From assembly GCF_027359415.1 (NCBI RefSeq), contig NZ_CP114780.1, forward strand, positions 1,696,764-1,760,763: a DNA stretch of 64,000 nucleotides, given 5' to 3'. The position numbers were made by a program, and so were the translations under genes. Below are positions 45,656-64,000 of the stretch, piece by piece (positions within the stretch are counted from its first letter, which is position 1; each line of letters starts with the position of its first letter). The DNA comes from Prochlorococcus marinus str. MIT 0918. GTDB lineage: Bacteria; Cyanobacteriota; Cyanobacteriia; PCC-6307; Cyanobiaceae. The notes under the pieces are model-generated. The model was not told where the DNA came from, did no database searches, and saw nothing but the letters and a program-made list of their open reading frames with translations.

Positions 45656-45659
45656 GAAT

Positions 45660-46988: not shown

Positions 46989-47097
46989 TGGCAGAGGTTT
47001 TTTACGAATTCATACTATGGATACCCTCTCAACCTAATCTTGATTGTGAGATGAGAGTTGTTTTGTGCTCATTTCTTTTCTTTGAGTGAATCTTCTT

Positions 47098-48456
47098 ATG
47101 CAAAAAGCCTCTCCTGGCTGGAAAGTCTTAGTGGCTATTTTCTCACTTTTGCTAACAATTTTAGTTTGGCAACAAGGACTTCAGGAAAGTTTTGATCGAC
47201 CTTCTGTTAGCCCAAAGCTTGCTTTGAATCAAAAAGAGATTGCCGTTCTTGCTTCACCGTCGTTACCTAAGACTTTTAGACCCTTGTTTGTGGGTATAGA
47301 TCCTTCATTGGAACTAAAAAATACTTTGCAGGAGTTTGATGTTACTCAACTAAAAGAGAGAGAGAGACTTTTGTTGTTTGCGATTGAAGGACCGAATACA
47401 AAAGACCGCTCTCTTCTAGAAGTGGATTTCCAAGATGAGAATTTGGATTTGGTAAAAAATAAGATTTTAGAAAGTCTTGATCAGAAAAGAGACCCTCTTT
47501 TATTAGTTGATGAAATAAAATTCATTAAAAGTGATCCGTTGCTATATCAATTGTCCTGTCTTTCAGTAGGAGCTCCGTCAGATATTTGCATTGACTCAAT
47601 GATCTCCCAGCGAATGGCTATTAGATTGTTTGTGAGTCAAGTCTTACCTTTATTGGCAACTTTATTAGGAATTGCTTTAGTTCTTTGGGAATTTATTCGT
47701 TTTATAGGTAGAAAAAATCATGTATGGCCTGCAATATCTTCGTTGCCTCTTTCGTTGGTTGATATGATTTTGCTTATAGCTGGAGGTTTTGTTGTTTTAG
47801 GGGAGCTTATGTCTCCTTTTATTGCTATTCCTCTTAGTGATTTCATTACTCAAGGAATTGTTAGCCCTACTAAAGAATCCTTTAAAGTTTTTGTTGGATA
47901 TAGTGTGATGACATTACCTCCATTACTTATTCTTTGGCAGCAGATAAAAGCGATATCAAAACTTGAAGCTCCTTTAGATGGAGTTATGCAATGGGGACTT
48001 AATTTAATTCCGAAGTCAATTTTTCAAGCATTTAAAAGTTGGTTTATGGTCCTCCCGTTTGTTTTATTAGCAAGTTGGCTCACGACATTCTTTTTTGGAG
48101 ACCCCGGAGGTAGCAATCCTTTGCTTGAAATGGTATTAAGCAATAAAAGTTTTTGGTCATTATCGATCCTTTTCGTTACAACAGTTTTTATGGCTCCTGT
48201 CTTTGAGGAATTTGTTTTCCGAGGAGTCTTTTTGCCAGTTTTAGTTAATCAAAAAGGTAAGATTTTTGCGGTAATAGTTAGTGCTTTGGTTTTTGCTTTA
48301 GCTCATTTAAGTGTTGGTGAAACACCACCACTGTTTGTTTTAGGTGTTGGTCTAGCTTTATTGCGGTTAAGTTCTGGACGCCTTTTGCCTTGTATGATTA
48401 TGCATTCTTTATGGAATGGAGTTACCTTTGCAAACTTGTTGCTTTTGAGTAGTTAA
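47098..48456 (+). CDS. CPBP-family intramembrane protease
   Basis: A 452-residue membrane protein with an N-terminal transmembrane segment, a 150-residue extracytoplasmic domain, and about seven C-terminal helices. The CPBP/Abi motifs are PVFEEFVFRGVFLPVL (catalytic Glu pair and Arg), FALAHLSVGETPP and MIMHSLWNGVTF. It likely cleaves membrane proteins or peptides, target unknown. ATG 47098 is used; a GTG at 47086 is in frame. Divergent from the histidine phosphatase. Confidence 0.88.
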   Translation: MQKASPGWKVLVAIFSLLLTILVWQQGLQESFDRPSVSPKLALNQKEIAVLASPSLPKTFRPLFVGIDPSLELKNTLQEFDVTQLKERERLLLFAIEGPNTKDRSLLEVDFQDENLDLVKNKILESLDQKRDPLLLVDEIKFIKSDPLLYQLSCLSVGAPSDICIDSMISQRMAIRLFVSQVLPLLATLLGIALVLWEFIRFIGRKNHVWPAISSLPLSLVDMILLIAGGFVVLGELMSPFIAIPLSDFITQGIVSPTKESFKVFVGYSVMTLPPLLILWQQIKAISKLEAPLDGVMQWGLNLIPKSIFQAFKSWFMVLPFVLLASWLTTFFFGDPGGSNPLLEMVLSNKSFWSLSILFVTTVFMAPVFEEFVFRGVFLPVLVNQKGKIFAVIVSALVFALAHLSVGETPPLFVLGVGLALLRLSSGRLLPCMIMHSLWNGVTFANLLLLSS

Positions 48457-48537
48457 TATTAGATTTTTAAATTCACTTTAACTTTAACTTGCCACCTATA
48501 GTGGATAATGGTTGACTAAACTAATTGCTACAGTTAA

Positions 48538-48999
48538 GTGACTTATGAAAGAGGTGTTCAGTCGAAGTGGGATGGATCTAAAAAATATTCAAAAAAGGCT
48601 TTCTTTTTGTTTAAGGGTTATTTCGTTTCACGTAATATTCTAAGAAAATATCCTCTGTTGGGAAGTTTACATAGGGCTATGGATGGAGCTTTATTGGCGG
48701 TTATCTTTTTTGGAGCTTTAATGACTGGCTTGGCATTGCATTCTCAACATCTATGGACACGTAACTTCTCTCGATTACAAACTACAAGAGACTTAACGCA
48801 TAGACTTGAGGAGTCAACAGCAGTTTTAGAAAGGCATTTTTTAAAAACAGTTTTTTCTCCAACTCTTATGGTGGCTACCAAGTCAAGTGATCTTATTTAT
48901 ATAGATAGATCTAGACAAAGGAAAATATCTAAGCGTTTGTTTAATATTTTCAGAGATAAATTTTCTGCTATTAGTTATCCAATAACTCGGGGTTTCTAA
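48538..48999 (+). CDS. FtsL-like bitopic protein preceding ftsI
   Basis: A 153-residue protein: a basic N-terminus, one transmembrane helix (about 50-68, ALLAVIFFGALMTGLAL), then a coiled-coil stretch ARNFSRLQTTRDLTHRLEE-like and a C-terminal tail. Size, topology and place directly before the septal transpeptidase (3-base gap) match FtsL-type division proteins. Sequence similarity is too weak to give the symbol. The start is GTG at 48538. Confidence 0.7.
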   Translation: MTYERGVQSKWDGSKKYSKKAFFLFKGYFVSRNILRKYPLLGSLHRAMDGALLAVIFFGALMTGLALHSQHLWTRNFSRLQTTRDLTHRLEESTAVLERHFLKTVFSPTLMVATKSSDLIYIDRSRQRKISKRLFNIFRDKFSAISYPITRGF

Positions 49000-49002
49000 A
49001 TA

Positions 49003-50805
49003 ATGTCAGCTATAAGATTTTCAAAAGTGCAAAAAAAGATAAAAAAGCGTTTAGATGTTGCACCACTTTCTCCAATACCAACTTATAGGTTAAAACTGGC
49101 TTTTTATATTATTTGCTTAGCTCTCTTTGCTCTTTTAGGGAGGGTAGGATGGTTGCAATTAATTGAAGGTTCTACATTAGAAGCTCGGGCTCGTGATAAT
49201 CAAACTAAGAAAGTTCAACCTATATCTAAAAGACTATCTATTGTAGATCGAAGGGGAAGATTAATAGCGTTGGATGAAAAAAGATATCGATTATATGCTC
49301 AGCCCTTTCGATTCAGATTTCCAGGAGATTTGCGAGGAACTATTCGTAAACCTGACGAGGTAGCTGAAAAACTTGCAGGGAAATTATTTATATCAGCAGA
49401 GAATTTATCCAGACAATTTTCTAATCAGAATTATCGGATGAAAATAGCAGAAGGTTTAAAGCCTGATGTTGCTTCTGAGATACGTGCGCTACGCATTGAG
49501 GGTTTGGACCTTGAACCATATCCACAAAGAATCTATCCACAAGATGAATTATTCTCAAATGTAGTTGGTTTTTTAGATTATGATCGTGTACCACAAGCTG
49601 GCCTAGAATTAAGCTTAAATAAAGAACTTTCTAGAAGAGAAAAAATTAGAAGTTTTAGATTTGGAAGGGATGGTACACCTTTGCCTAGTGATTTGGAGCC
49701 AGGTGTTTTTAATGCTGACAATGTGCTTTTACGGTTAACCCTTGATGCACGATTGCAGGAAGTAGCTCTTAAAGCCTTAAGAGAACAATTAATTAAATGG
49801 AATGCAGATAAGGGAGTAGCAATTGTTATGAATGTTGAGAATGGTGAGATTTTATCCTTGGCATCTACTCCTAGTTATGATCCTAATAAGTACTGGGATT
49901 ATCCAGCATCTAGGTATAAGGAATGGTCTGTTCAAGAATTATTTGAACCTGGATCAACTTTTAAGCCTATTAATCTTGCTTTGGCTCTTGAAGAAGGTGT
50001 GATTAGTCCTGATGGAACAGTTTTTGATTCTGGAGTAGTAACTGTGGGAGGTTGGCCTCTAACAAATTGGGATAAAAAGCCTAATGGATTATTAGACTAT
50101 GCAAAGGTTCTTGAGGTTTCTAGCAACGTTGGGATGGTAAATATTGTGCAAAAAATTAGTCCAGAGAGGTATTGGGAATGGCTTCATCAATTAGGTCTGA
50201 ACAATATTCCTCAAACTGATTTGCCTGGGGCTGTACCTGGTTACATAAAAGATAAGCAAGTATTTATTAAGCAACCTATTCATCAGGCTGTTGCTTCGTA
50301 TGGACAGGGATTTTCTATAACACCATTAAAGCTTGTTCAATTACATGCGCTAATTGCCAATGGAGGAAGGATGATTAGTCCACATATCAAAAAAGAATTT
50401 CTTAATGAATCAATCCAATTTCATAATCGATTTAGACAAAATGATCCAATATTGAGTCCTAATGTCACACAAACAGTTTTAAATTGGATGGAATCAGTAG
50501 TAGAAAATGGAAGTGGAAAAGGTGCCAAAATTGATAATTATCGGATAGGTGGGAAAACGGGTACAGCTGATCAAACAAAAGATGGAAAGACTTATGACTC
50601 TAAAATTTGTAGCTTTGTTGCGATTCTGCCAATAGAGCAGCCTAAGTTTGTCGTTGCTGTAGCCATAGATGGACCGAAAAAAAATCATGCTTATGGATCA
50701 ACTGTTGCAGTACCTGTTGCCAGAAAAATTATTGAAAGTTTGATTGTTATTGAAAAAATACCTCCTGGGAATCCTAAAAAGAATGTTTTATCTGCTCAAC
50801 GTTAA
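49003..50805 (+). CDS. ftsI: Penicillin-binding protein, septal transpeptidase FtsI (PBP2/3)
   Basis: Cross-links septal peptidoglycan. The 600-residue class B PBP has one N-terminal transmembrane helix (about 30-50), a dimerisation domain, and the catalytic motifs SxxK (EPGSTFKP, S318/K321), SSN (374-376) and KTGTADQ. It continues from the FtsL-like gene with a 3-base gap. The class B domain order and neighbour support FtsI. Confidence 0.93.
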   Translation: MSAIRFSKVQKKIKKRLDVAPLSPIPTYRLKLAFYIICLALFALLGRVGWLQLIEGSTLEARARDNQTKKVQPISKRLSIVDRRGRLIALDEKRYRLYAQPFRFRFPGDLRGTIRKPDEVAEKLAGKLFISAENLSRQFSNQNYRMKIAEGLKPDVASEIRALRIEGLDLEPYPQRIYPQDELFSNVVGFLDYDRVPQAGLELSLNKELSRREKIRSFRFGRDGTPLPSDLEPGVFNADNVLLRLTLDARLQEVALKALREQLIKWNADKGVAIVMNVENGEILSLASTPSYDPNKYWDYPASRYKEWSVQELFEPGSTFKPINLALALEEGVISPDGTVFDSGVVTVGGWPLTNWDKKPNGLLDYAKVLEVSSNVGMVNIVQKISPERYWEWLHQLGLNNIPQTDLPGAVPGYIKDKQVFIKQPIHQAVASYGQGFSITPLKLVQLHALIANGGRMISPHIKKEFLNESIQFHNRFRQNDPILSPNVTQTVLNWMESVVENGSGKGAKIDNYRIGGKTGTADQTKDGKTYDSKICSFVAILPIEQPKFVVAVAIDGPKKNHAYGSTVAVPVARKIIESLIVIEKIPPGNPKKNVLSAQR

Positions 50806-50881
50806 GGCTTTTAAAAAAATATATAAGGATGAAATCATAAGGAAATATCGCTAGTTTTTATATGTATGAATTGTAAGGATT

Positions 50882-51889
50882 ATGCCTAGTCTTCTTGAGC
50901 AACTTTCTTCAATGACAGTTGTGGTTGCTGATACGGGTGATTTGGAAGCTATAAGGACTTTTAAACCAAGAGACGCAACTACCAACCCCTCTCTAATTCT
51001 TGCAGCAGCCCAATTACCTGCTTATCAGGATTTAATAGATCAATCTCTTCGGGCTTCAAGAGAAAAGGTAGGACAGCGTGCTTCTGTTAAAGAAGTGGTT
51101 GATGAGGCTTTAGATGAGATTTGTGTGATCTTTGGTAAAGAGATACTTAAAATAATTCCTGGAAGAGTATCAACGGAAGTAGATGCTCGACTTAGCTATG
51201 ATAAAGATAAAACAATTGAAAAAGCAAGAAAGATCATTGCTTTATATAATCAGTTTGGAATAAATAATGATCGTATTTTAATCAAGATTGCATCAACTTG
51301 GGAGGGGATTAAGGCCGCTGAGATTTTGGAGAAAGAAGGAATTCATTGTAATTTAACGCTCTTATTTGGTTTCTCTCAAGCTGTTGCATGTGCAGAAGCC
51401 GAAGTAACACTTATTTCACCATTTGTTGGTCGAATTCTTGATTGGTATAAGGCAGAAACTGGTTTGCAATCTTATCCTGGCCCAGAGGATCCTGGTGTAA
51501 TATCAGTAACTAAGATATTCAATTATTATAAGCTTCATAACTATAAAACTGAGGTTATGGGAGCAAGTTTTAGAAATGTTGATGAGATTATTGAATTATC
51601 TGGATGTGATTTATTAACTATCTCTCCCAAGCTTTTAGATGAGATGTCTAAGACCGAGGCTATTTTAATAAAGAAATTGGATTCATCAAAACCAATAAAT
51701 TCAATAGAGAAGTTACATCTTGATGAATTTTCTTTTAGAAAGATGCTGAAATCAGATCGCATGGCTGATGAGAAGCTAGAAGAAGGGATTGTGAATTTTT
51801 CTAAGGCAATTAAGCAACTTGAAGCTCAGTTAATTGAAAGAATTTCTTTGCTCGAGAATAAAGGATCTCCTGCTTTATCAGCTAGATAA
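50882..51889 (+). CDS. tal: Transaldolase
   Basis: Non-oxidative pentose phosphate step. The 335-residue protein shows the TalB-type start [29 protein letters not shown], the Schiff-base Lys in [13 protein letters not shown] (about residue 140) and [28 protein letters not shown]-terminal helical end follows. AAGGATT precedes the ATG. Phage talC enzymes are much shorter, so this is the host gene. Confidence 0.96.
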
Positions 51890-51908
51890 ATAAACTATTA
51901 GGATTTAA

Positions 51909-53036
51909 TTATCTTTGTAAAAGTAATCGCTTTATTACACGTTGAGCAATATCTCCATATCCCATTTCTCCTGAAAGAATTTGGGCGATTCTTTGAGGTG
52001 CTGTAGGTCTTTTTATTCCTAGTTGATATCCAAGTTTTGGAAGTCTATAAAAAACTTGTGAAATTCTTCTTCCCCATTGCATTGAATCACCCCATTTTGA
52101 TTTCATGTTTTTTGAGTAGTTGCTGAGATCTGTGGTGTCGCCTTTTAAGAAATTGTTTATTGCTTCTGCTGCTTCGCAACCACTTATTAGTGAAGGCCTA
52201 AGCCCTTCAGCAAGAAACGGATCACAGAGAGATGCAGCATCACCGACTAAAACAATTCCATTGCCATGAAGCGCACTATGTCCATTCCAAACTCGAAGTC
52301 TAGAATCTTTTCTTACCCCTGAGTTACATTCAAAACCTAGATTTGGTAGTAATTTGTCAAGAATTCTTTGGCTTTCTAGAACTTGATCTCCTATAAATGT
52401 TCCTACTCCAATATTTATAGAGTTTTTCAAAGGGAAGGCCCACGCAAATCCATGCTTAACGAGACCAAATTCAAATCTTGAAGTTCCTTCTTCTAGTAAC
52501 CCTCTGCCTTCTAACCTCACAGAAGTTGTTGTGGCAAAATGGAGATTTTTAGGACCAATTTTAAATTTCTTTGGCCAAGGCGAGCTTGATCCATCTGCAA
52601 TAACAATGATTTTAGCTTCAATTTGACGACCATTTGTAGAGGTGATGCGCCAAATGTTGTTTACTTTTTGTATTTTTATTGCGTCAAAAGAGTTCTCTAT
52701 ATTTGCCCCTTTATGAATTGCTTCTTTTGTTAAAAGCTCATCGAGTTTTTCTCTTTTGACTATCCAAAAAGGAGAAGATCCTGGCAGATTGGCAACTACA
52801 GTATCTGATAAACACCAGCTAAATTCAACTTTTTTAATTACTTCATCAACAACTTCATTTAGTGAAAAGGGGAAAAGTTTTTGAACTGAAGCAGCCATCC
52901 CCCCGCCACAAGGTCTTAAAAGATGACTTGGTTGTTTTTCTAGAATAGTTACTTGAATCCCTTTGTTGGCCAAGTGAAATGCTGTTGAAGCTCCTGAAGC
53001 CCCTGCGCCTATAACTGCAACTTCAGTAAAATTCAA
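51909..53036 (-). CDS. FAD-dependent oxidoreductase, geranylgeranyl-reductase-like
   Basis: A 375-residue flavoprotein with the N-terminal FAD motif [28 protein letters not shown] (a geranylgeranyl-reductase-type CGG motif), [14 protein letters not shown] and [22 protein letters not shown]. It probably reduces prenyl double bonds; chlP itself is usually separate, so the substrate is open. The start is TTG and overlaps the frr stop (TTGA), pointing to translational coupling with frr. Confidence 0.85.
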
Positions 53037-53581
53037 ACTTTTAGAATTTCTGATTCTTTTTTAGAAAGGTTTTTTTCTATTTCGTTAATAAACTTGTTAG
53101 TTAACTTTTGAACAGTTTCTTGTTGGTCATGGCTTTGATCTTTAGAGATTTCTCCTTCTTTTTCAGCAGTTTTTATTTTTTCTATAGCATCTCTTCGTAT
53201 ATTGCGAAGAGAGACCTTTGCTTCTTCAGCGTATTTAGAAGCTAGCTTGCAAAATTCTTTTCTTCGTTCTTCAGTCAGTGGAGGGATGTTTATTCGAATT
53301 ATCTTGCCATCATTATTTGGTGTAAATCCAAGGTCACTAAGAGATATGGCTTTTTCTATTAGTGATAGAGAACTGATATCAAAGGGTTGAATAGAAATAG
53401 TTTGTGAATCGGGTGTAGAAAGAGTGGCTAATGATTTTAAGGGAGTATCTGCTCCATAATATTCAACTGTTAAACGATCTAAAAGTGATGTATTTGCTCT
53501 GCCTGTTCTTATTGTATTGAAGTTTCGTTGTGAAGCCTCAACGGATTTAATCATGTTTGCTTCTAGCTCTTTAGTAATCAT
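53033..53581 (-). CDS. frr: Ribosome recycling factor
   Basis: Splits post-termination ribosomes with EF-G. The 182-residue protein has [19 protein letters not shown], the [20 protein letters not shown] core and the C-terminal helical bundle. It follows pyrH with a 45-base gap, the common pyrH-frr order. Confidence 0.97.
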
Positions 53582-53626
53582 TTGGTTCCTATATAGTTTT
53601 GGAGAAAAGTATAGTTTAAATAAATA

Positions 53627-54340
53627 TTAGCGGGAATTAGCTATCCTAGAGCCTATCTTTTCTCCTGCTACTGCTTTATTAATATTGCCAGGTTCAAAAA
53701 TATTAAAAACCACTATAGGGATATCATTATCTTTGCAAAGGGCAATTGCAGTACTATCCATTACACCTATTTCTTTACTGAGTACATCTTGAAAAGATAG
53801 AGTTTCATATTTAATTGCATCAGTAAATTCTTTTGGATCTTTGCTATATACACCGTCAACTTTTGTTGCTTTAAATATGACATCAGCATTAATTTCAGCA
53901 GCTCTTAACGCGGAGGTTGTATCTGTTGTAAAGAAAGGGTTCCCGCAACCTCCACCAAATACAACTACTCTTCCTTTTTCAAGATGTCTAATTGCTCTTC
54001 GACGTATATAAGGTTCAGCGATTTGTTGCATTTCTATAGCGGTCTGAACGCGTGTTTCTACCCCTGCTCTTTCCAATCCATCTTGTAATGTTATTGCATT
54101 CATTACAGTTGCAAGCATTCCTACATAATCAGCAGTTGCACGATCCATTCCTGCAGCAGACCCTTTTAGACCTCGAAATATATTTCCTCCGCCAACCACG
54201 ATGGCTAATTGCGTTCCTTTTTCAACAACTTTGGAAACATCTTGTGCTATGGATTGAACAATGGCGGGATCAATTCCATATGGCTTGCTCCCCATTAGAG
54301 CTTCGCCGCTAAGTTTTAAAAGGACACGTGAGTAAGCCAT
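53627..54340 (-). CDS. pyrH: UMP kinase
   Basis: Phosphorylates UMP to UDP. The 237-residue amino-acid-kinase fold shows [46 protein letters not shown] and the [19 protein letters not shown] substrate segment. First gene of the pyrH-frr-oxidoreductase run. Confidence 0.97.
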
Positions 54341-54611
54341 TGAAAATCAATACCTAGATGACAGTAGCAAGATATCTATGATTAGCTTAAAGAGTGTATT
54401 GATTTGCTAGTCAGCATAGATCAAATTGATTTTTAATTGCTTTTTTATATTTTGAGGACAACTAAAGGGATGGAAATTTATTCAGATGAGATTTTTTTAT
54501 TAATTTTTCAGGTGTAAAAGTTAAGTATGAATTTGATTATTGCCTTTATATGCTCCTCTTTAATAATAAAATGTTAATAGTTTTTTGTTACTATTATATC
54601 TAAATATAAAT

Positions 54612-55304
54612 TCAATACTCTACTCCCTGCTGTGCTTTTACACCTTTCTCTTTGAATGGATGATGTATTAATTTCATTTCGGTTACTAAATCAGCAATCT
54701 CAATTAGCTCTGGCTTTGCATTCCTACCAGTTAATACAACATGAGTTAATGGAGGCCTTGCCCTTAGCCCTTTAATTACTTCTTCTAGCGATATATATCC
54801 CAACTTTATTGCAATGTTAATTTCATCTAGTATTACTAGTTTTTGATTTTTATTCCCAAGATAAATAAGGGCTTGTTCCCAAGCTTCCTCGCTTAATTTC
54901 TTATCGCGCTCTCTATTTTGAGTTTCCCAAGTAAAACCTTCACCCATTGCATGCCAATTAATTAAATTGTCAAATCTCTTTAAAGCCTTGGCTTCCCCTG
55001 GTTCCCATCCGCCTTTAATAAACTGAATAATTGATACATTTTCTCCATGACCTAAAGTTCTAAGTGCCATTCCTAAAGCAGCAGTAGTTTTTCCCTTGCC
55101 TTGGCCTGTGAAAACAATTATTAATCCTTTTTCAATATTTCGTTCTTGTACCCTTTTACCCTGTACTTCTTTTCGACGCTGCATTTTTTTTTGGTAATTT
55201 TCTTCATCTATTTCTTCAGATGAATAACCTCCAACCCCTAATTGATTTGACTCTTTGTCTAAATTAATTAGAACAGACTTTTTCTTGTTAGGCTCACTTT
55301 TCAT
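54612..55304 (-). CDS. cobO: Cob(I)yrinic acid a,c-diamide adenosyltransferase
   Basis: Adds the adenosyl ligand in B12 synthesis. The 230-residue protein has the P-loop TGQGKGKTTAALG (about 66-78), IQFIKGGWEPGEAKAL, LVILDEINIAIKLGY and a C-terminal RNAKPELIEIADLVTEM. A Lys-rich N-terminal extension precedes the core. The tyrosine recombinase gene is 22 bases upstream in the same direction. A weak TAATAGT/ACTATTA hairpin follows the gene (54575-54596). Confidence 0.95.
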   Translation of the reverse strand: MKSEPNKKKSVLINLDKESNQLGVGGYSSEEIDEENYQKKMQRRKEVQGKRVQERNIEKGLIIVFTGQGKGKTTAALGMALRTLGHGENVSIIQFIKGGWEPGEAKALKRFDNLINWHAMGEGFTWETQNRERDKKLSEEAWEQALIYLGNKNQKLVILDEINIAIKLGYISLEEVIKGLRARPPLTHVVLTGRNAKPELIEIADLVTEMKLIHHPFKEKGVKAQQGVEY

Positions 55305-55326
55305 AATCTATTTTGAGACTTAAGTA

Positions 55327-56487
55327 TTAACTGAGTTTACTGCCTAAAGCCTTATCAACTGCTTGCTGTTGATCTCTTCTTGTAATCCAATGATGATATG
55401 TACGATTATGAATAGCAACTGAATGCCCCATCATTCGAGCTGAAACTGTATCTGGAAGCCCTATATGTATTGTACGTATTGCCCAAGCATGCCTTAGGTC
55501 ATAAGGGGTAATAGGAAGTTTATATCTTCTAAATTGTTCAGAAACTCTTCTACCTACATTTTGCAAGGTGGTTTTAGTTAAATCAGTATTAATTTCTGGA
55601 AGCAGATTAGAATCTTCAGAAAGTTGAGTTAATTTAAATAATTTAATCCATTCTGGTGGGAATGGCCATACTTGATGCTCGCCAGTTTTTGTATTAGGGA
55701 AAACTCTTAATACTTGGTCGCTATTTTGTCTAAAGCAAGAAAGGTCACAAAAGAAAACTTCATGATTTCTAAGACCATATGTTGCCATTAATCCATAAAC
55801 TAATTTCCATTTAGGATTGGGGATCAAATTATATGTTTTTTCAATAAGACTATCGGGTGGTAGTTTTCTAAATTGTGCTTTATTCATTCCATACCCATAG
55901 GCCATATCTTTCCAATTTTCAGGGAGTTTTATATCTAAAAACTTGGCAAATGCCTTAAGAGTAGTGCCACATTGTTGCCTGCTGCGACTGTTTTCTGAAT
56001 AACTAGTCAAAGTCTTTATAAAGTGCTCTTGATTTATATTTCCTTGTTTTGTTTTTGCTAATGCTTTGAACCTGTATATATAGGGTTGATATGCAGAGAC
56101 CCAATTAGTTTGTTGACTAGATTTTGACTTGCTTTTGAAAGTATCACAGAAGAAATGCTGTTTAAATCTCTCGGTTGCATCTTCTATATCAGAATAATTC
56201 TTTTTAAAAGAGCCTTTAGAATTTTTTGAGCCCCAATTTTTCCAGTTGAATTGATTATGTTCTATTTGTAAATATACAAGTTGGAGTAATTTTTCTGCTT
56301 GCTCAAGGCCTTCCATGGTAGAAGTTAGACCTAAACTGATTCTTTGATCTTTTTTTTTATTAGATTCATTTGGACAGGGCATTGGACCTCTCAAGCCAAG
56401 TCGATTACCACGTTTTTCTATGCGCAGTTTGATCCCTTGAGTGGCAAGTTTGTTATTGATATTAAATAGTTGACTGCTAAAGCTCAT
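55327..56487 (-). CDS. Tyrosine recombinase/phage-integrase family protein
   Basis: A 386-residue protein. The N-terminal half (about 15-200) fits an arm/core-binding region. The C-terminal catalytic part has R240 (TYGLRNHEV), K267 (NTKTGEHQ), Y-DLRH (R332, H333), GH at 354-355 and the nucleophile Y364 (RTYHHW). The first box-II His is Tyr (Y329), seen in some family members. There are no adjacent mobility genes, tRNA target or repeats; it sits between cobO and hemH in a core run, so it may be a host gene rather than a mobile element. Confidence 0.85.
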   Translation of the reverse strand: MSFSSQLFNINNKLATQGIKLRIEKRGNRLGLRGPMPCPNESNKKKDQRISLGLTSTMEGLEQAEKLLQLVYLQIEHNQFNWKNWGSKNSKGSFKKNYSDIEDATERFKQHFFCDTFKSKSKSSQQTNWVSAYQPYIYRFKALAKTKQGNINQEHFIKTLTSYSENSRSRQQCGTTLKAFAKFLDIKLPENWKDMAYGYGMNKAQFRKLPPDSLIEKTYNLIPNPKWKLVYGLMATYGLRNHEVFFCDLSCFRQNSDQVLRVFPNTKTGEHQVWPFPPEWIKLFKLTQLSEDSNLLPEINTDLTKTTLQNVGRRVSEQFRRYKLPITPYDLRHAWAIRTIHIGLPDTVSARMMGHSVAIHNRTYHHWITRRDQQQAVDKALGSKLS

Positions 56488-56560
56488 TGATTTAAATAGT
56501 TATAGCTACATTGACGTTGTTAGGCGATAAGCTCAACCCCTTTCTAGGAGTTTTTCATTA

Positions 56561-57736
56561 ATGGCTCGTATAGGTGTCTTATTGATGAATCTTGGGGGAC
56601 CTGAGAGAATTAAAGATGTAGGACCTTTTTTATATAATCTTTTTTCTGACCCAGAGATCATTAGACTTCCTATTCCATTTTTTCAAAAACCTCTTGCATG
56701 GTTAATAAGTACTCTTAGAAGTTCAAAGTCTCAAAGGGCTTACGAAGCAATTGGTGGAGGATCGCCCTTAAGAAGAATTACTGAGCAACAAGCTAGAGAA
56801 TTGCAGAGCGAACTTCGCAAAAGAGGTGTTGATGCAACAAGTTACATTGCTATGCGTTATTGGCATCCTTTTACTGAATCTGCAGTCGAAGATATTAAGG
56901 CAGATGAAATTGATCAGGTTGTTGTGCTTCCCCTTTATCCACATTTTTCAATTAGTACAAGTGGTTCCAGTTTTAGAGAGTTGCGAAGGCTGAGAGAACT
57001 TGACAAGGATTTTAAAAAATTATCGATTAAATGTATTAGAAGTTGGTTCGATAACCCTGGATATATTTCCTCTATGGCTGAATTAATTCAAAGAGAGATA
57101 TTGCTTTGCGAATCTCCTGAAAAAGTTCATATATGTTTTACAGCTCATGGAGTCCCAAAAAGCTATGTTGAAGAAGCTGGAGATCCTTATAAGAATGAGA
57201 TTGAAGATTGCTCATTATTAATTATTGATCAACTTGAAACTTCTTTAGGGTTTAGTAATTCTTATACGCTCTCTTATCAGAGCAGAGTCGGACCAGAAGA
57301 ATGGCTTCAGCCATATACAGAAAATGTTTTAGAGGATTTAGGTAATAGAAATACAAAAGAAATTGTTGTAGTACCAATTAGTTTTGTTAGTGAACATATA
57401 GAAACATTACAGGAAATTGATATTGAATACAAAGAGATAGCTCTTGATCAAGGAATAACTAATTTTAGACGTGTAAAAGCTTTGGATACCTATCCTTTAT
57501 TTATAAATGGGTTGGCAGATTTGGTTATTTCTTGTTTAAAGGAGAAAAATATGAGTCTTGATGAAGCGGCTAAACTACCTGATAAAGTTAAGCTTTATCC
57601 ACAAGAAAAATGGCAATGGGGCTGGAATAATAGTGCAGAAGTCTGGAATGGAAGAGTTGCAATGTTTGTTTTTATTGTGTGTTTTCTTGAATTAATCATT
57701 GGCAATGGACCCTTGCATTATTTAGGCCTGATTTGA
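56561..57736 (+). CDS. hemH: Ferrochelatase with C-terminal chlorophyll-binding-type helix
   Basis: Inserts Fe2+ into protoporphyrin IX. The core (about 1-330) shows [45 protein letters not shown] (catalytic His) and the [22 protein letters not shown] segment with the catalytic Glu. A linker leads to a Hli-like helix (about 350-391) with [21 protein letters not shown], the cyanobacterial/plastid fusion that binds pigment and links heme to chlorophyll supply. It is divergent from the recombinase gene. Confidence 0.97.
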
Positions 57737-57884
57737 CTTAAATCTCTCTTGAATCAACTTAATCATTTAAAGAGAAATTTAAGAAACATCTTGTTTTATG
57801 ATTTTAAATATTATTTCTTTAGGCAGTTTTACCATTTCCCATATAGGATTTATATTTAATTAGAATATTAAATCTTTCCCTGCC

Positions 57885-59639
57885 GTGACCCTGTTCTCTT
57901 CACCTGCTTTAGGTGATTCAGATCATCAGGAACAAAAACAAACATTAGGGGCTGATGCCCTTATGGACTCTCTTCGGAGACATGGAGTAGATACTGTTTT
58001 TGGTTACCCAGGAGGAGCTATTCTCCCAATTTATGATGCTGTTTATAAAGCAGAGAAGGCTGGGTGGTTAAAGCATATTCTTGTAAGACATGAGCAAGGT
58101 GGGGCTCATGCAGCTGATGGATTCTCAAGGGCGACAGGGAGAGTTGGGGTTTGTTTTGGTACTTCGGGCCCAGGAGCAACAAACCTTGTTACTGGAATTG
58201 CTACTGCGCAAATGGATTCGGTTCCTTTGGTTGTTATTACTGGCCAAGTTCCTCGTCCAGCAATAGGAACTGATGCTTTTCAAGAAACAGATATATTTGG
58301 CATTACTCTTCCAATTGTTAAACATTCGTGGGTGGTCAGAGATCCTTCAGAAATAGCATCTGTCATTGCTCAAGCTTTTTTTATAGCTTCTTCTGGTCGA
58401 CCTGGCCCTGTTTTGGTTGATATACCTAAAGATGTTGGTCAAGAGTACTTTGATTATGACCCAGTTGAACCTGGCTCAATCATCCCTGCAGGATTCAAAC
58501 CTTCTCCTAAGGCAGACCCTTTAACAATTTTAAATGCATTGAATTTTATAGAAAAAGCAGAAAAACCTCTTTTGTATGTTGGAGGAGGAGTTATTTCTGC
58601 TAGTGCGCATGAAAATATATCTGAACTTGCTAAGCGATATAACATTCCTGTAACAACAACTTTAATGGGGAAAGGAGCTTTTGATGAGCGTGATCATTTA
58701 TCTGTTGGCATGTTGGGAATGCATGGAACTGCATATGCAAATTTTGCGGTAACTGAATGCGATTTATTGCTGGCCATAGGAGCTCGATTTGATGATCGTG
58801 TTACAGGGAAGTTAGATACATTTGCTCCTAGAGCTAAAGTTGTTCATTTTGAGGTAGATCCCGCAGAAATAAATAAAAATAGAATTGCTGATGTTGCTGT
58901 GCTTGGAGATTTAGGGAAAAACCTAGAAAAATTATTAGAACTATCTCATCAGAAAAAAGTACATATAAAAACTAGTGAATGGTTATCACAAATAGATAAA
59001 TGGAAGGAGAAATACCCGCTTGTAATTCCTGAAAAGCAAGGCGATATCTTTCCACAAGAAGTTCTATTAGAAGTTAGAGATTTAGCCCCAAATGCTTATG
59101 TAACAACTGATGTTGGTCAGCATCAAATGTGGTCGGCACAATATTTAAGGAATGGCCCTCGACATTGGATTAGCAGTGCTGGCTTAGGAACAATGGGTTT
59201 TGGTGTGCCTGCAGCTTTGGGAGTCCAAGTCGCTTTGCCAAATGAACAAGTAATTTGCATTGCTGGTGATGCAAGTATTCTTATGAATATTCAGGAATTA
59301 GGAACAATTTCTCAATATAAATTAAATACAAAAATAATTATAATTAATAACCATTGGCAAGGAATGGTTAGACAGTGGCAGCAAAGTTTTTATGAAGAGC
59401 GTTATTCAGCAACAAACATGTTACATGGTGAGCCTGATTTTGTGGCTTTGGCAAAGGCATTTGGAGTTGGTGGTTGTTTAATTAAAGAACGAAAGTTCTT
59501 AAGGGATCAATTACAAGAAGCTTTTGCTCATGATGGACCAATGTTGATAGATGTCCATGTTCGAAGAGATGAGAATTGTTATCCAATGGTTCCTCCTGGT
59601 AAGAGTAATGCTCAAATGGTAGGCTTGCCGAAAAATTAG
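57885..59639 (+). CDS. ilvB: Acetolactate synthase large subunit
   Basis: TPP enzyme of branched-chain amino acid synthesis, joining two pyruvates (or pyruvate and 2-oxobutyrate). The 584-residue protein has the TPP glutamate region [19 protein letters not shown], the FAD domain, [20 protein letters not shown] and the [14 protein letters not shown] diphosphate motif. The start is GTG at 57885. A short Ile-rich open frame upstream (57798-57863) was considered as a leader and rejected. Confidence 0.96.
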
Positions 59640-59707
59640 TTTGATTATTTTTTGTGGGTTCAAAAGACGTAACTATTTGTGAATTAATAAGGTTGTTATT
59701 CAGTCCA

Positions 59708-60061
59708 ATGAAAAACATTATTCAATTTCTTTTAATTATAAATATTAGTATCTTCTCTTTTCCTTGTATTAGTTCATCTGCAGAGGTTTTACAGGTAACC
59801 AATTCATCTCTTCTTCAGATAGGAGATCATAACCGTAATTACACAATAAAAATTGCTTGTTTTAATGTAAACCCCCTAAAAAAAGAAGAGGCTGAAAATT
59901 GGCTTAAAAGCTCATTGACTAGAAAAGAAAAAGTTAATCTGCTACCAAGAGGTTCGACTGACGGAGTATTGATTGCAAGAGTGATTAGGATTAGCTCAAA
60001 CAAGGATATTGGCAAAGAAATGGTAGAATTAGGTTTTGGCAGTTCTGAATGTAGGGTTTAA
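59708..60061 (+). CDS. Secreted nuclease-like (SNase-type) small protein
   Basis: Using ATG 59708, the 117-residue precursor has a signal peptide (KNIIQFLLIINISIFSFPCISSSA). The remaining beta-rich domain resembles an OB/SNase fold: VLQVTNSSLLQIGDHNRNYTIKI, then CFNVNPLKKEEAENWLKSSLT, VNLLPRGSTDGVLIARVI and EMVELGFGSSECRV. The typical Arg/Glu catalytic triad is only partly kept. An earlier in-frame start adds 18 residues before the signal peptide and is less likely. It follows ilvB; role unknown. Confidence 0.65.
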   Translation: MKNIIQFLLIINISIFSFPCISSSAEVLQVTNSSLLQIGDHNRNYTIKIACFNVNPLKKEEAENWLKSSLTRKEKVNLLPRGSTDGVLIARVIRISSNKDIGKEMVELGFGSSECRV

Positions 60062-60068
60062 TTATCTT

Positions 60069-60863
60069 TTATCTTTTACTAGAAGCAATACAACTCCATT
60101 GCCTTTCTTTTGTTTGATCTCTTCTCCATGATGAAAAGAATTTAGTTTCGTTAAACGTACAATCATTATTAATACTAATTTGAAAATCCTTTATATGTTC
60201 CAAAATCAATTGATTGTATGCAAATGTTCTTATGTCAAGAAGTACTTTGTTCGAACTTTTGTCATTTTGAATACATCCCATTGCAAACATTGATTCCTTT
60301 GACTTTTCTTTTGAGAAATTACTTCTTCCCCCAAAATTATTATAAAGACAAGTCATTACATCTAGTTCTACCTGATAATTAGAACCACTAATTGCAGGAC
60401 CTAAAGCAATTATTAGATCTTTTCTCTTGCATCCAAGTTGTTCTATTTTAATTAAAGCTTCTCTTATTATATTTTTGCTTAAACCTTTCCATCCTGCATG
60501 TATTGCAGCTACATTACCTGATTTTTTGTCACCCAATAAAATAGGTATACAATCTGCTGTATAAATCCAAAGTCCTTGGTTATTTTCGTCACTTAGAATG
60601 CAATCTGCTTGTATAGGAAAAGGAATATTTGTTTGAGATGCCATGACAATTTCTTTGCCGTGATTTTGAATACAAAAATGAATAGTAGATGATTTATTGA
60701 CTTCATTCTTTAAATACTTAGGTTCATTATATATTGGTATTCTTGTAAAGAATGCATGATTAAAATTATTTTCTAATAGCAAAAGGGATTGTATATATAT
60801 TAATTCATTTTTTTTTACCCATCTCCACCCTTTTCTTTCTGTCAATATTTCCCCTTTACTCAT
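60069..60863 (-). CDS. pgeF: Purine nucleoside phosphorylase-like, laccase-domain protein (YlmD/PgeF family)
   Basis: A 264-residue member of the family once called multicopper polyphenol oxidase; YlmD-type proteins act on purine nucleosides, and PgeF edits peptidoglycan precursors in E. coli. The conserved core has YTADCIPILLGDKK, IHAGWKGLSKNII, LGPAISGSNYQVE and, near the C-terminus, the His/Cys-type ligands. Which activity applies here cannot be told. It is convergent with the nuclease-like gene, with 7 bases between stops. Confidence 0.85.
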   Translation of the reverse strand: MSKGEILTERKGWRWVKKNELIYIQSLLLLENNFNHAFFTRIPIYNEPKYLKNEVNKSSTIHFCIQNHGKEIVMASQTNIPFPIQADCILSDENNQGLWIYTADCIPILLGDKKSGNVAAIHAGWKGLSKNIIREALIKIEQLGCKRKDLIIALGPAISGSNYQVELDVMTCLYNNFGGRSNFSKEKSKESMFAMGCIQNDKSSNKVLLDIRTFAYNQLILEHIKDFQISINNDCTFNETKFFSSWRRDQTKERQWSCIASSKR

Positions 60864-60909
60864 TTAGTAGATAAGTTATTTGATAATAATCTATTGATTT
60901 TAAATTAAA

Positions 60910-61809
60910 TTAAATTAAATCTTTAAGCATCCAAAAACCAAAGAACTTTTCATCTTCAGGAGATTTTTGTATTGAAATAAATTGAATACCATCTCCATCT
61001 TCTTTTCCTTTTTGCAAGCATAGGTTAACTTTTTCAGCATATTGTTTATCCATGTCAGTAACAAGCCATCTTTCCTGTTGACCTGCTTCTAGAACGAGTT
61101 GATTGTTTTGAACTAAAAGCTTTACAGGTTCTATCCCACTCAGCCAAGCTGACAATGCTAGTGCTCTGGTTTTACTGAATAATCGTAGGCCTGGGATTGA
61201 AATATTTTCGTTTAGAGACTCTTTAATGTGAATTAATGAATTGAATTCCATTGGCCATTGATCTGCTTCACGGAGGCTTCCAATAGGTAGAGAAGAAAAA
61301 CTCCAAGCATCACCTCTTAGTGGTTCTGGAAGTGGTTCAGGTTGATTGGAAATTTGCGTATAAGAAGAATCAGGTGCTATAGGGCCAGAGATATAGCCTG
61401 GTTCATTTGGATATATATCTTTTTCTCTTTGATTCATCCATTCAAGAAGGGAATAGGTCCTCCTGCTTTCAATAACTTCTATGCCGATTTTTTCAGAGGC
61501 TTTTTTGATCATTGTTTTCATAGATGATCTCCAGCACCTTAATCTTTTAGGGACTTCCCAGCCTTTGCTTTGAGCCTCTTTCATGGCTTCAACTAATGCT
61601 GTGTTTAACCAGATTGAATTAACTTCATTTGCAGGACATTTTTTTTCCCATCGGAAAGTTTCTTCTCCTGAAAAATTCTCTGTACTAGAAATTAGTAATT
61701 CCCATCTTTTTTTTCCGTCATTTTCTAAAATCGGTCGAGAATAAAAGTCAAGCTCCCAATCAGCGACTTTCTGACTTATTTTTTTTGGAGTATCAAAGGA
61801 AGAGGTCAT
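60910..61809 (-). CDS. Tab2/Atab2-family protein (DUF1092)
   Basis: Tab2 in Chlamydomonas and Atab2 in Arabidopsis are RNA-binding factors needed for photosystem translation. The 299-residue protein starts WELDFYSRPILENDGKKRWELLI and has the conserved AMKEAQSKGWEVPKRLRCWRS, SRRTYSLLEWMNQREKDIYP and GDAWSFSSLPIGSLRE. Its ATG overlaps the stop of the S1-domain gene by one base (TAATG), so the two are translated in step. Confidence 0.88.
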   Translation of the reverse strand: MTSSFDTPKKISQKVADWELDFYSRPILENDGKKRWELLISSTENFSGEETFRWEKKCPANEVNSIWLNTALVEAMKEAQSKGWEVPKRLRCWRSSMKTMIKKASEKIGIEVIESRRTYSLLEWMNQREKDIYPNEPGYISGPIAPDSSYTQISNQPEPLPEPLRGDAWSFSSLPIGSLREADQWPMEFNSLIHIKESLNENISIPGLRLFSKTRALALSAWLSGIEPVKLLVQNNQLVLEAGQQERWLVTDMDKQYAEKVNLCLQKGKEDGDGIQFISIQKSPEDEKFFGFWMLKDLI

Positions 61810-63065
61810 TATTTAATTGGCAAGTCTTCTTTTGGGTTGAGTAGAGTTTTTACCTTTTTGGCACGCTCTTCTGCTTCTGCAAGAACTTTTTCTTTGTCAA
61901 TAAGAATTTCTCCAGGTAGACCTTCTAATAGAGCTGTATTTAATCCAATTCTACCTCTGGTCGGATCTAAATCAGTTATTACTGCTTTTACTTCATCGTC
62001 TTGATTGAAAACTTCTCTAAGGGATCTAAGACTTCCATTTGTAATCATTGATTGATGAAGTAATCCACTAATACCTCCTATATCAACAAAAAATCCATAA
62101 GGTTTGACTGCTAATACTTTTCCTTTTACAAGTTGACCAATTTCTAATTGAGCAAATTTTGCTGCAGTAACAGCTTTTTTTTCAGATAGGATAAGCTTTC
62201 GATTATCAGGAGAAACTTCTATGAAGGCTACATCTAATGTTTTGCCTACTAAGGTTTCATGTTTGTCTCCGTCATTCAATTGAGAGCGAGGAATAAAACC
62301 TCGAAGACCTTCTATATCGCAGGTTAAGCCTCCACGATTAAAGCCATTTATCTTTACTTGTACGACTTTAGAGTCTTTAGCAAATTGAAGAACTGTTTCC
62401 CAGCTTTTTCTAAGGGCCAGTGCTCTACAGCTGATAGTTACCATTCCATCAGCGTTTTGTTCCCTTGTGACCAATACTTCCACTTCAACCCCCTTGGGGA
62501 AAAGTTCTTTGAGATTGGTTATTACTCCAAGGCCACATTCGTGTTTAGGCATAAAACCTGGTGCTTTCCCACCAATATCTACATACACCCCATCACTCTC
62601 AATTCCAATAACTTTTCCTTTCGCAATTTCACCAGTCATTCCAATAGGCTCGTTCTCATCTAAAGCTGCTAAGAATGCATCTTCGTCAAAATCAAAATCA
62701 TCTACGCTTCTTTCTAGGAAATTATTTTCAGTGAAACTTGATTGATTGCTTTTGAATTTATTAGAGGTCTCTTGATCAAGAAGGTCTCCCATTGAAAAAT
62801 TTTCATTTGAATTGTAATCAAATTCATATGAATTTTTCTTTTGATTTGATTCAGATGGTTTTGACGGAGAAACAAGATTTTTTTGAATTTCCGGTGTAGG
62901 TAATTCTTCTGTTTTGCTTGCCTGTTTTAAAGCTTTAGGGTCTTTTTGAGGTTGCTTATCTTCTTTGCGACTGATATGCAAAACCTGCAGAGGCTTACGC
63001 AGATGAGTCTGCGCTTGATTTGGCGGATTAGGCCTTTTAGGTTCGTGGTTTCCTGATTCGGCCAT
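61809..63065 (-). CDS. S1-domain RNA-binding protein (ribosomal protein S1 homologue, short type)
   Basis: A 418-residue protein with a charged Asn/Ser/Glu-rich N-terminal part (about 1-140) and three S1 repeats (IAKGKVIGIESDGVYVDIG, VVQVKINGFNRGGLTCDIEG, VKGKVLAVKPYGFFVDIG). The second repeat is the least typical. It matches the second S1 gene (often rps1b/nbp1) of picocyanobacteria. It is divergent from the creatininase-family gene, and its tail overlaps the tab2 start. Confidence 0.9.
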   Translation of the reverse strand: MAESGNHEPKRPNPPNQAQTHLRKPLQVLHISRKEDKQPQKDPKALKQASKTEELPTPEIQKNLVSPSKPSESNQKKNSYEFDYNSNENFSMGDLLDQETSNKFKSNQSSFTENNFLERSVDDFDFDEDAFLAALDENEPIGMTGEIAKGKVIGIESDGVYVDIGGKAPGFMPKHECGLGVITNLKELFPKGVEVEVLVTREQNADGMVTISCRALALRKSWETVLQFAKDSKVVQVKINGFNRGGLTCDIEGLRGFIPRSQLNDGDKHETLVGKTLDVAFIEVSPDNRKLILSEKKAVTAAKFAQLEIGQLVKGKVLAVKPYGFFVDIGGISGLLHQSMITNGSLRSLREVFNQDDEVKAVITDLDPTRGRIGLNTALLEGLPGEILIDKEKVLAEAEERAKKVKTLLNPKEDLPIK

Positions 63066-63126
63066 TGTGGGCCTATTATGGTTATCGGTAATTCATTCTT
63101 GCAGGAAAAGTTAAATTATTTAAGGC

Positions 63127-63957
63127 TTGGAGGGTATTTCTATTAGTTATCATTCACGCAATTTAGCTTATCTTAGTTGGCCAAAAGCTTCTAAGGCTGC
63201 ATTAAAAAAGGGGGCTACGGTTATTTGGCCTTTTGGAGCATGTGAACAACATGGCCCACATTTACCTTTGATTACAGATACTTTGTTCGCTGAAAAAATT
63301 TTATATGAAACTTGCGATCGATTGCCGGATGAGTTGCCTGTTTGGACTTTACCTTCCCAATCAATAGGGTTTTCACCTGAACATCTAGGCTTCTCGGGCA
63401 CACTTTCCCTTTCAGGAGGATTAATTCTTCAAATTGTTAGTGAGATAGGCCAACAACTTGCTGGGATGGGATTTCAAAGGCTTGTTTTTTTTAACGCTCA
63501 TGGAGGTCAAATAGGACTTTTACAAGCTATTGCAAGAGAACTTAGGGTTAAGTGTCCTTCAATGGCAGTTTTGCCTTGTTTCTTATGGAGTGGTATCGAT
63601 GCTGTAGAAGAATTACTTCCTGATAAGGAAGTTGAGCAAGGACTTCATGCTGGCTTGGCTGAAACTAGCCTTATGCTTTCTTTTGAACCTGACCTGGTCG
63701 GCATTGAAAGGCCATATGATGGAGATTCCCAATTGTTAGAAGGGAAAGATATTTCTGTCCCAGCTGGCTGGAGTCTTGAAGGAGCAGCTCCATGTGCATG
63801 GCTTACAAATGAATTAAGTATTTCAGGAGTTATTGGAGATAGTAGAGAAGCACATCCTTTGCTTGGAGATAAGCTTAGAGAAGTTTTAATTGATCATTGG
63901 GCCCAATTGTTTTTGTCTCTAATGGAGAGTAATTGGCCTCCTGTCGAAACTAAATAA
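63127..63957 (+). CDS. Creatininase-family amidohydrolase
   Basis: A 276-residue metal hydrolase of the creatininase/FAPy deformylase group. Metal-binding residues are visible in FGACEQHGPHLPLITDT, the GFSPEHLGFSGTLSLSG loop and FNAHGGQIGLLQAIARELR, and HAGLAETSLML supplies the later Glu. Start: TTG at 63127 opens the frame; no ATG lies close by. Substrate unknown; creatinine itself is unlikely in this host. The remaining 43 bases of the window hold no further gene start that I can support. Confidence 0.85.
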   Translation: MEGISISYHSRNLAYLSWPKASKAALKKGATVIWPFGACEQHGPHLPLITDTLFAEKILYETCDRLPDELPVWTLPSQSIGFSPEHLGFSGTLSLSGGLILQIVSEIGQQLAGMGFQRLVFFNAHGGQIGLLQAIARELRVKCPSMAVLPCFLWSGIDAVEELLPDKEVEQGLHAGLAETSLMLSFEPDLVGIERPYDGDSQLLEGKDISVPAGWSLEGAAPCAWLTNELSISGVIGDSREAHPLLGDKLREVLIDHWAQLFLSLMESNWPPVETK

Positions 63958-64000
63958 AATTAACTAACAATAATTCCTCTGAAAGAACTCACTTTTTTCT

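Follow-up and report, generated by a model that had tools for sequence, protein, structure and literature searches.

Single tyrosine recombinases that replace the XerCD pair include XerH acting on difH, XerS acting on difSL, and XerL acting on the dif of the Legionellales. XerS and XerH are described as acting together with FtsK, at sites that adjoin their own genes (PMC5357621, PMC2958812), and archaeal XerA as a single recombinase that works without FtsK (PMC2958812). XerL is described as a divergent single recombinase overlooked by homology searches (PMC9765430), and provides a precedent for enzymes of that kind. For cyanobacteria, Kono et al. state that genome-wide dif prediction failed for all five species tried (PMC3025954), a 2016 homology survey gives xerC as rare (PMC5101192), and a review assigns the chromosomal proteins annotated as FtsK in Synechocystis, S. 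elongatus, and Anabaena to the HerA/YjgR clade (PMC7766704). Here we compare with these systems a tyrosine recombinase gene of Prochlorococcus marinus MIT 0918, whose genome is a single contig of 1,789,313 bp. In the open-access PMC literature we found no earlier report of this gene, or of the dyad sites described below.

The window is the whole stretch of DNA that was analysed, 64,000 nucleotides in length. Its relevant features are as follows, in window coordinates.

54612..55304, minus strand: cobO, downstream of the recombinase gene on the same strand.
55327..56487, minus strand: tyrosine recombinase gene, 386 aa, ATG start; catalytic residues R240, K267, Y329, R332, H355, and Y364.
55330..55887, minus strand: catalytic domain, approximately residues 201-386; PF00589 matches residues 228-366, and the structure matches XerA, lambda Int, and XerH.
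55396..55398, minus strand: codon of the nucleophile Tyr364, from the sequence; invariant in 114/114 untruncated orthologs.
56233..56487, minus strand: N-terminal domain, residues 1-85; helix-three strands-helix, arm-DNA-binding-like, with a PF12167 score of 15.1 bits (cut-off 22) and a weak fold match.
56511..56536, plus strand: intergenic motif TTGACGT...CTCAA between hemH and the recombinase gene, conserved in the genus.
56561..57736, plus strand: hemH (ferrochelatase), divergent neighbour of the recombinase gene.

The position of the gene, the gap of 22 bases to cobO, and the adjacency to hemH (73 bases away) are as given in the initial annotation, and so are the residues R240, K267, R332, H333, H355, and Y364 and the replacement of the first box-II His by Tyr (Tyr329). 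The catalytic residues were invariant in 116 aligned orthologs, two of which, being truncated, lack positions 355 and 364, and the box-II His position is Tyr in every aligned ortholog. The earlier expectation that the enzyme should be active is thus upheld as far as residues can speak for activity. Nor did the surroundings suggest a mobile element. No exact direct repeats of at least 14 bp flank the gene within 45327-64000, and the window, which ends 7.5 kb past the gene, has tRNAs solely at 8.3-8.9 kb, approximately 46 kb away. The patchiness, att repeats, and cargo expected of a mobile-element integrase were not found; the annotation had likewise noted no att repeats, tRNA, or cargo.

The catalytic R-K-[H/K/Y]-R-[H/W]-Y set and the PF00589 family score together identify the protein as a tyrosine recombinase. 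The Pfam Phage_integrase score is 25.1 bits for the protein (cut-off 27.1) and 27.3 bits in the genome scan, and the ortholog scores above cut-off in most members of the genus. Among NCBIfam models the best match is archaeal XerA (NF040815), with a score of 37.5 bits where the equivalog cut-off is 220, and this model was matched at E<=0.001 by 11 of 16 orthologs. XerS (NF003462) scored 15.4 bits against a cut-off of 267, with six of the 16 orthologs matching at E<=0.001. The comparison with XerC/D suggested by the annotation did not place the protein in that pair: the XerD equivalog scored 15.8 bits against a cut-off of 329.6, and the XerC equivalog was not listed at E<=1. The recombinase may work like XerCD, XerS, or XerA, yet it falls outside each of these families by their own thresholds.

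The predicted structure (pLDDT 87.8, pTM 0.56, so that domain placement is uncertain) comprises an N-terminal domain, a helical core-binding domain, and the catalytic fold. Foldseek gave archaeal XerA and lambda integrase as the best PDB matches, and XerA was the top solved structure both by sequence and by Foldseek E-value. In the VIA comparison of this model, XerH (Z 13.7, rmsd 4.4, 271 aligned), IntI (Z 13.3, rmsd 4.0, 245 aligned), XerA (Z 13.3, rmsd 14.6, 246 aligned), and lambda integrase (Z 13.1, rmsd 20.7, 306 aligned, model residues 1-378) were tied; the large rmsd of lambda integrase means that its domain placement differs. Taken alone, the N-terminal domain (pLDDT 88.5) yielded no Foldseek match at E<=0.001, and in VIA its Z reached at most 5.0 with unrelated folds tied, as they were for the P4-like integrase domain 3rmp (Z 4.7, rmsd 2.7, 59 aligned). 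XerA is thus the closest described system by several measures, but the bit score is far below its cut-off, an extra N-terminal domain is present here, and the candidate site described below has a different architecture.

The overall architecture resembles that of an arm-domain integrase, a group of which the protein is a possible member. Lambda Int aligns from residue 1, and a signal of Arm-DNA-bind_2 (PF12167) was detected in 13 of 41 aligned members (best E 3.9e-4). Lambda-type integrases differ in that no att sites or cargo were seen here, inheritance is vertical, and the N-terminal domain alone lacks a clear fold match. The nearest named mobile relatives found, at 27-37% identity, are on a 17-kb plasmid of Microcystis NIES-298, on a 13-kb plasmid of Picosynechococcus PCC 8807, and in cyanophage PSS2. 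The viral relatives share the Tyr at the box-II His position (11/11 alignable, of 19), whereas the small replicons that carry the plasmid and phage integrases also encode VapE- or DUF3987-domain proteins, HTH proteins, and hypothetical proteins. Two non-mobilizable cyanobacterial plasmids of 17 and 13 kb (L221 and L222), each with a recombinase relative, a VapE-/DUF3987-domain gene, and HTH regulators, are possibly phage-plasmids.

That distant relatives occur on small plasmids and viral contigs (23-45% identity) would fit a decaying or recently inserted remnant of a mobile element. The locus itself speaks so strongly for the opposite, with vertical descent, purifying selection, a fixed position, and no att repeats, that we give a remnant hardly any credence. 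In 34/34 Cyanobiaceae loci (the 30 best-scoring and four from the phylum sample) hemH is the divergent neighbour and cobO is at most 1.5 kb away, and hemH has the same place in the three strong loci from outside the family (3/3). An outgroup set retained 80 of 487 named relatives (Leptolyngbya, Nodosilinea, Phormidesmis, Thermosynechococcus, Halomicronema, and others), one of which (L143) is the same contig as one of those three non-family loci (L036). The hemH pair was present in 61 of these 80 loci; in three of the other 19 the DNA upstream is shorter than 2 kb, and in the remainder no adjacent hemH was seen in the DNA examined. The synteny asked for in the annotation therefore holds throughout the sampled Cyanobiaceae loci and in most of the outgroup loci. 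Recombinase and hemH trees were congruent (n = 94, Mantel r 0.943, with 0 of 999 permutations as high), and of 48 strongly supported splits in the recombinase tree 37 were shared with hemH and five were in conflict. This congruence within a conserved Cyanobiaceae locus is a further point against a remnant. Joint transfer of the two neighbours is unlikely because of the phylum-wide pattern of synteny. Of 16 close pairs one was saturated; in the other 15 the dN/dS of the recombinase was 0.03-0.26. It was higher than the hemH value in 13 of 14 pairs for which both could be calculated. As far as sequence can show, this is an ancient, vertically inherited, and catalytically competent tyrosine recombinase.

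A search with the protein gave matches in 189 of 201 Cyanobiaceae genomes; among the 130 of high quality, 128 matched. Five of the 189 matches are weak or partial (G019, G043, G049, G055, and G066), and at E<=1e-100 the counts are 184/201 and 127/130, the latter lower by one because G049 gave weak matches only. Thirteen of the 17 genomes with no match or a weak one also lack hemH, probably because their assemblies do not contain the region, and in G087 and G055 a contig breaks at the locus. All 49 single-contig Cyanobiaceae genomes matched at E<=1e-107. Outside the family, matches at E<=1e-110 were obtained in at least 17 other families of the class sample, other families giving weak matches only; any match at all was found in 224 of 291 genomes of that sample. 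The distribution is near-universal (127/130 high-quality genomes at E<=1e-100), not the patchy one that the annotation named as a refutation.

Natural losses were nevertheless observed, and they would be useful for asking what loss of the recombinase costs. In G025 and G049 (loci L216 and L217) hemH is intact and the recombinase gene is absent beside it; G025 has no match genome-wide, and in G049, with its weak matches, a methyltransferase-like frame occupies the place of the gene. In G289, a single-contig genome from outside Cyanobiaceae, the gene is reduced to broken pieces with stops (G289:C1:2296275-2297120). Given these three genomes, the recombinase is not strictly indispensable.

A profile search of the MIT 0918 genome found the recombinase as its sole PF00589 match, and the second XerCD pair that would have spoken against a chromosomal role was not among the matches in this single contig. 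The same is true of eight of the 49 single-contig Cyanobiaceae genomes, the other 41 having two to 12 PF00589 matches. That several streamlined genomes have this one recombinase alone would suit an enzyme acting in trans on tRNA-integrated islands (tycheposon-like) without an integrase of their own, as proposed in the annotation. However, several members of the genus carry other PF00589 genes, the recombinase gene is fixed beside hemH across distant and partly filamentous cyanobacteria beyond the marine clades, and the four tRNAs found in a 400-kb stretch around the MIT 0918 terminus (4/4) had no partial copies of at least 14 bp in that stretch or in the window. We therefore disfavour action on islands and give it a small chance.

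The annotation had also proposed chromosome dimer resolution, and near-universal presence, vertical descent, the kept catalytic residues, and the standing as sole PF00589 match in eight of the 49 single-contig genomes lend it support. Such a role would set the enzyme apart from XerS and XerH: no FtsK was found in 61 family genomes, and the gene lies far from the candidate sites. FtsK_SpoIIIE (PF01580) was above cut-off in none of the 61 Cyanobiaceae genomes, which gave two sub-threshold fragments, and the S. elongatus control likewise lacked a match. The FtsK gamma domain (PF09397) was absent from all 50 high-quality genomes of the phylum, MIT 0918 included, and present in two of all 59. HerA/YjgR was considered as a substitute for FtsK and rejected, HerA_C being found in just one of the 61 family genomes.

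A dif-like site was sought beside the gene and near the replication terminus. The intergenic motif TTGACGT...CTCAA occurs as a single copy in each of 12 of 13 genus genomes (12/20 across the genomes searched). It was rejected as a gene-linked dif, since it is promoter-like and was not seen between hemH and the recombinase gene in outgroup lineages; we read it as a control element of hemH rather than a recombination site. The same motif bears on the idea of a domesticated integrase whose only use is to bind DNA as a regulator, of hemH or of its own promoter for instance. A fixed divergent pair with a conserved motif between its members is what such a regulator would leave in the genus, but in the outgroups a different, TTGTTAAAAT-type promoter-like element occupies the gap in many filamentous lineages, and a mere binding protein would hardly keep all catalytic residues invariant over 116 orthologs. 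This role is improbable.

No convincing dif of the E. coli, B. subtilis, or archaeal type was found in five terminus stretches; the best matches to the consensus letters were two at seven mismatches (B. subtilis dif), both in coding sequence. When conserved palindromes were sought position by position near the terminus, most of the results were tRNAs, coding sequence, or the ends of genes. A conserved block upstream of a upp-like gene was also rejected as the terminus site: in four genomes it lies 36-94 kb away from the T/A-skew maximum, its strong matches are tied to the same two genes, and in high-light genomes it is not beside them. In MIT 0918 this noncoding block (TTTATTCACGTTATTGAAAATA, G000:C1:457644-457665) has a pentapeptide-repeat gene on one side and a divergent upp-like gene on the other. 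It is conserved in many Cyanobiaceae, with some match within three mismatches in 33 of 151 genomes, and the matches of high-light genomes are elsewhere, away from these neighbours.

Comparison of stretches around the T/A-skew maximum did reveal a conserved cluster: visual inspection of several genomes showed repeated boxes downstream of pheT. The first pattern, which allowed up to two mismatches to a row of three AGACT/AGTCT boxes with 12-bp steps, was set on the same eight genomes that it was counted in. All of its matches were in the interval from pheT to the next gene for the genomes taken as MED4-, 9312-, 9301-, and NATL2A-like and for G039, as were three of four in G078, three of six in G010, and none of one in MIT 0918. 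In five genomes fetched afterwards, 12/12 matches were within the pheT interval. The final pattern is a dyad of 47 bp with 21 fixed bases, TCT-N6-AGWCT-N7-AGWCT-N7-AGWCT-N6-AGA, which the position-by-position palindrome searches had missed, its spacers being variable. In the terminus stretches scanned it occurs at 46 sites in 16/16 genomes, two to four in each, in one intergenic region by pheT. The MIT 0918 sites, which are among the weaker ones, are as follows.

G000:C1:343,556: dyad site, 18 of 21.
G000:C1:343,681: dyad site, 17 of 21.
G000:C1:344,140: dyad site, 16 of 21.

At a score of at least 18 of 21, all 31 matches in 13 genomes were within the intervals, which make up 15.9 kb of 1.84 Mb of terminus DNA, against an expectation of 0.2 from block-shuffled sequence; at 17 or more, 35 of 37 were inside, against 2.1 shuffled. 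Three Synechococcus-type genomes were fetched at the step in which the final pattern was set down, and their scan came after it. Of their matches at 17 or more, 11/11 fell within the intervals, 8.0 kb out of 400 kb, where shuffled sequence gave 0.5. These shuffled controls preserve local base composition only, and the scanned stretches were chosen at the terminus. Across the 2.24 Mb of terminus DNA scanned, every match of 18 or more fell within an interval. A further 1.02 Mb from elsewhere, which included the window and non-family loci, had two matches at 17 and none higher. The cluster was 4-24 kb from the T/A-skew maximum in 13/13 genomes (0.2-1.4% of the genome), and the recombinase gene is approximately 298-385 kb from the sites. 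The MIT 0918 terminus (G000:C1:285000-370000) is AT-rich and island-like, with G+C mostly 0.26-0.30 compared to approximately 0.34 before it.

The cluster sits between the convergent pheT and a gene for a protein with ribbon-helix-helix (RHH) and J domains, MIT 0918 having in addition a trmA-like gene there. At the terminus and flanked by two 3' ends, the cluster is poorly placed for ordinary promoter control. The dyads were also considered as hairpins, and this was rejected: there is no covariation in the spacers (mean paired 0.38 vs. 0.37 shuffled), so that the elements look like protein sites, and DNA folding of three sites gave z of -2.2 to -1.3. Rfam found nothing at the sites, and PADLOC found nothing. 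The RHH/J protein of MIT 0918 (G000:C1:344198-345223, L057) joins an N-terminal ribbon-helix-helix (PF01402, 18.9 bits, below the cut-off of 20.5) to a C-terminal J domain (PF00226, 29.7 bits), an unusual combination.

Several observations count against the dyads as the target of the recombinase. There are two to four sites per genome, not one; the first-pattern match of MIT 0918 fell outside the interval and its sites are among the weaker ones; the recombinase gene is distant from the sites, unlike the genes of XerS and XerH; and the sites always adjoin the RHH/J gene, homologs of which are beside them in 16/16 genomes. A ribbon-helix-helix domain is the more usual reader of short tandem boxes, and AGWCT boxes at 11-12 bp steps resemble the tandem operators of such proteins. 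It is accordingly a serious possibility, held below an even chance, that the recombinase resolves dimers but that the dyads are bound by the adjacent RHH/J protein, as terminus-organising or centromere-like sites, with the true crossover elsewhere; sites that look made for a protein suit this as well. On the other hand, the dyads are 3' of the RHH/J gene, between convergent genes and not at its promoter. They also had no match of 18 or more outside the intervals of the 2.24 Mb of terminus stretches, unlike matS sites, which are scattered.

Chromosome dimer resolution is still the best reading of the recombinase. The annotation's proposal gains support from the terminus cluster, although no dif of known type was found in the five terminus stretches and the dyads are no more than a candidate target; that it resolves dimers with the terminus dyads as its target has, in our estimate, about an even chance. 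The enzyme would have its origin among the integrases of small temperate-type cyanobacterial elements, and its present service would be to the chromosome. Most likely it would resolve dimers at the replication terminus as a single enzyme without FtsK, in the manner of archaeal XerA. Its candidate target would be the cluster of 47-bp dyads, in each of which three AGWCT boxes, set at 12-bp steps, stand between the half boxes TCT and AGA, and the core may be two adjacent AGWCT boxes with a 7-bp spacer. More speculatively, the RHH/J-domain protein might be an accessory or synapsis factor. The full picture of a picocyanobacterial terminus machine (a domesticated arm-domain integrase, no FtsK or HerA, a multi-copy five-box dyad of 47 bp, and an RHH/J partner encoded alongside) is put forward tentatively, at somewhat less than even probability.

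In MED4, vesicle DNA is described as enriched over approximately 100 kb at the terminus, including a window at 826-832 kb, with the highest peak at a stated dif site whose position comes from earlier literature (PMC10913375); the text of that paper available to us gave no sequence for the site. In the genome taken as MED4 the dyad sites are at 828,863-829,611, inside this published window. If the proposal is true, the dyads would give cyanobacteria their first dif of known sequence, and the architecture of dimer resolution would be unlike that of XerCD, XerS, XerH, XerL, and XerA. The finding may bear on why Prochlorococcus vesicles contain terminus DNA, and on how cyanobacteria, very abundant marine photosynthesisers among them, part their circular chromosomes, for which it offers one gene, one family of sites, and one neighbour gene as candidates.
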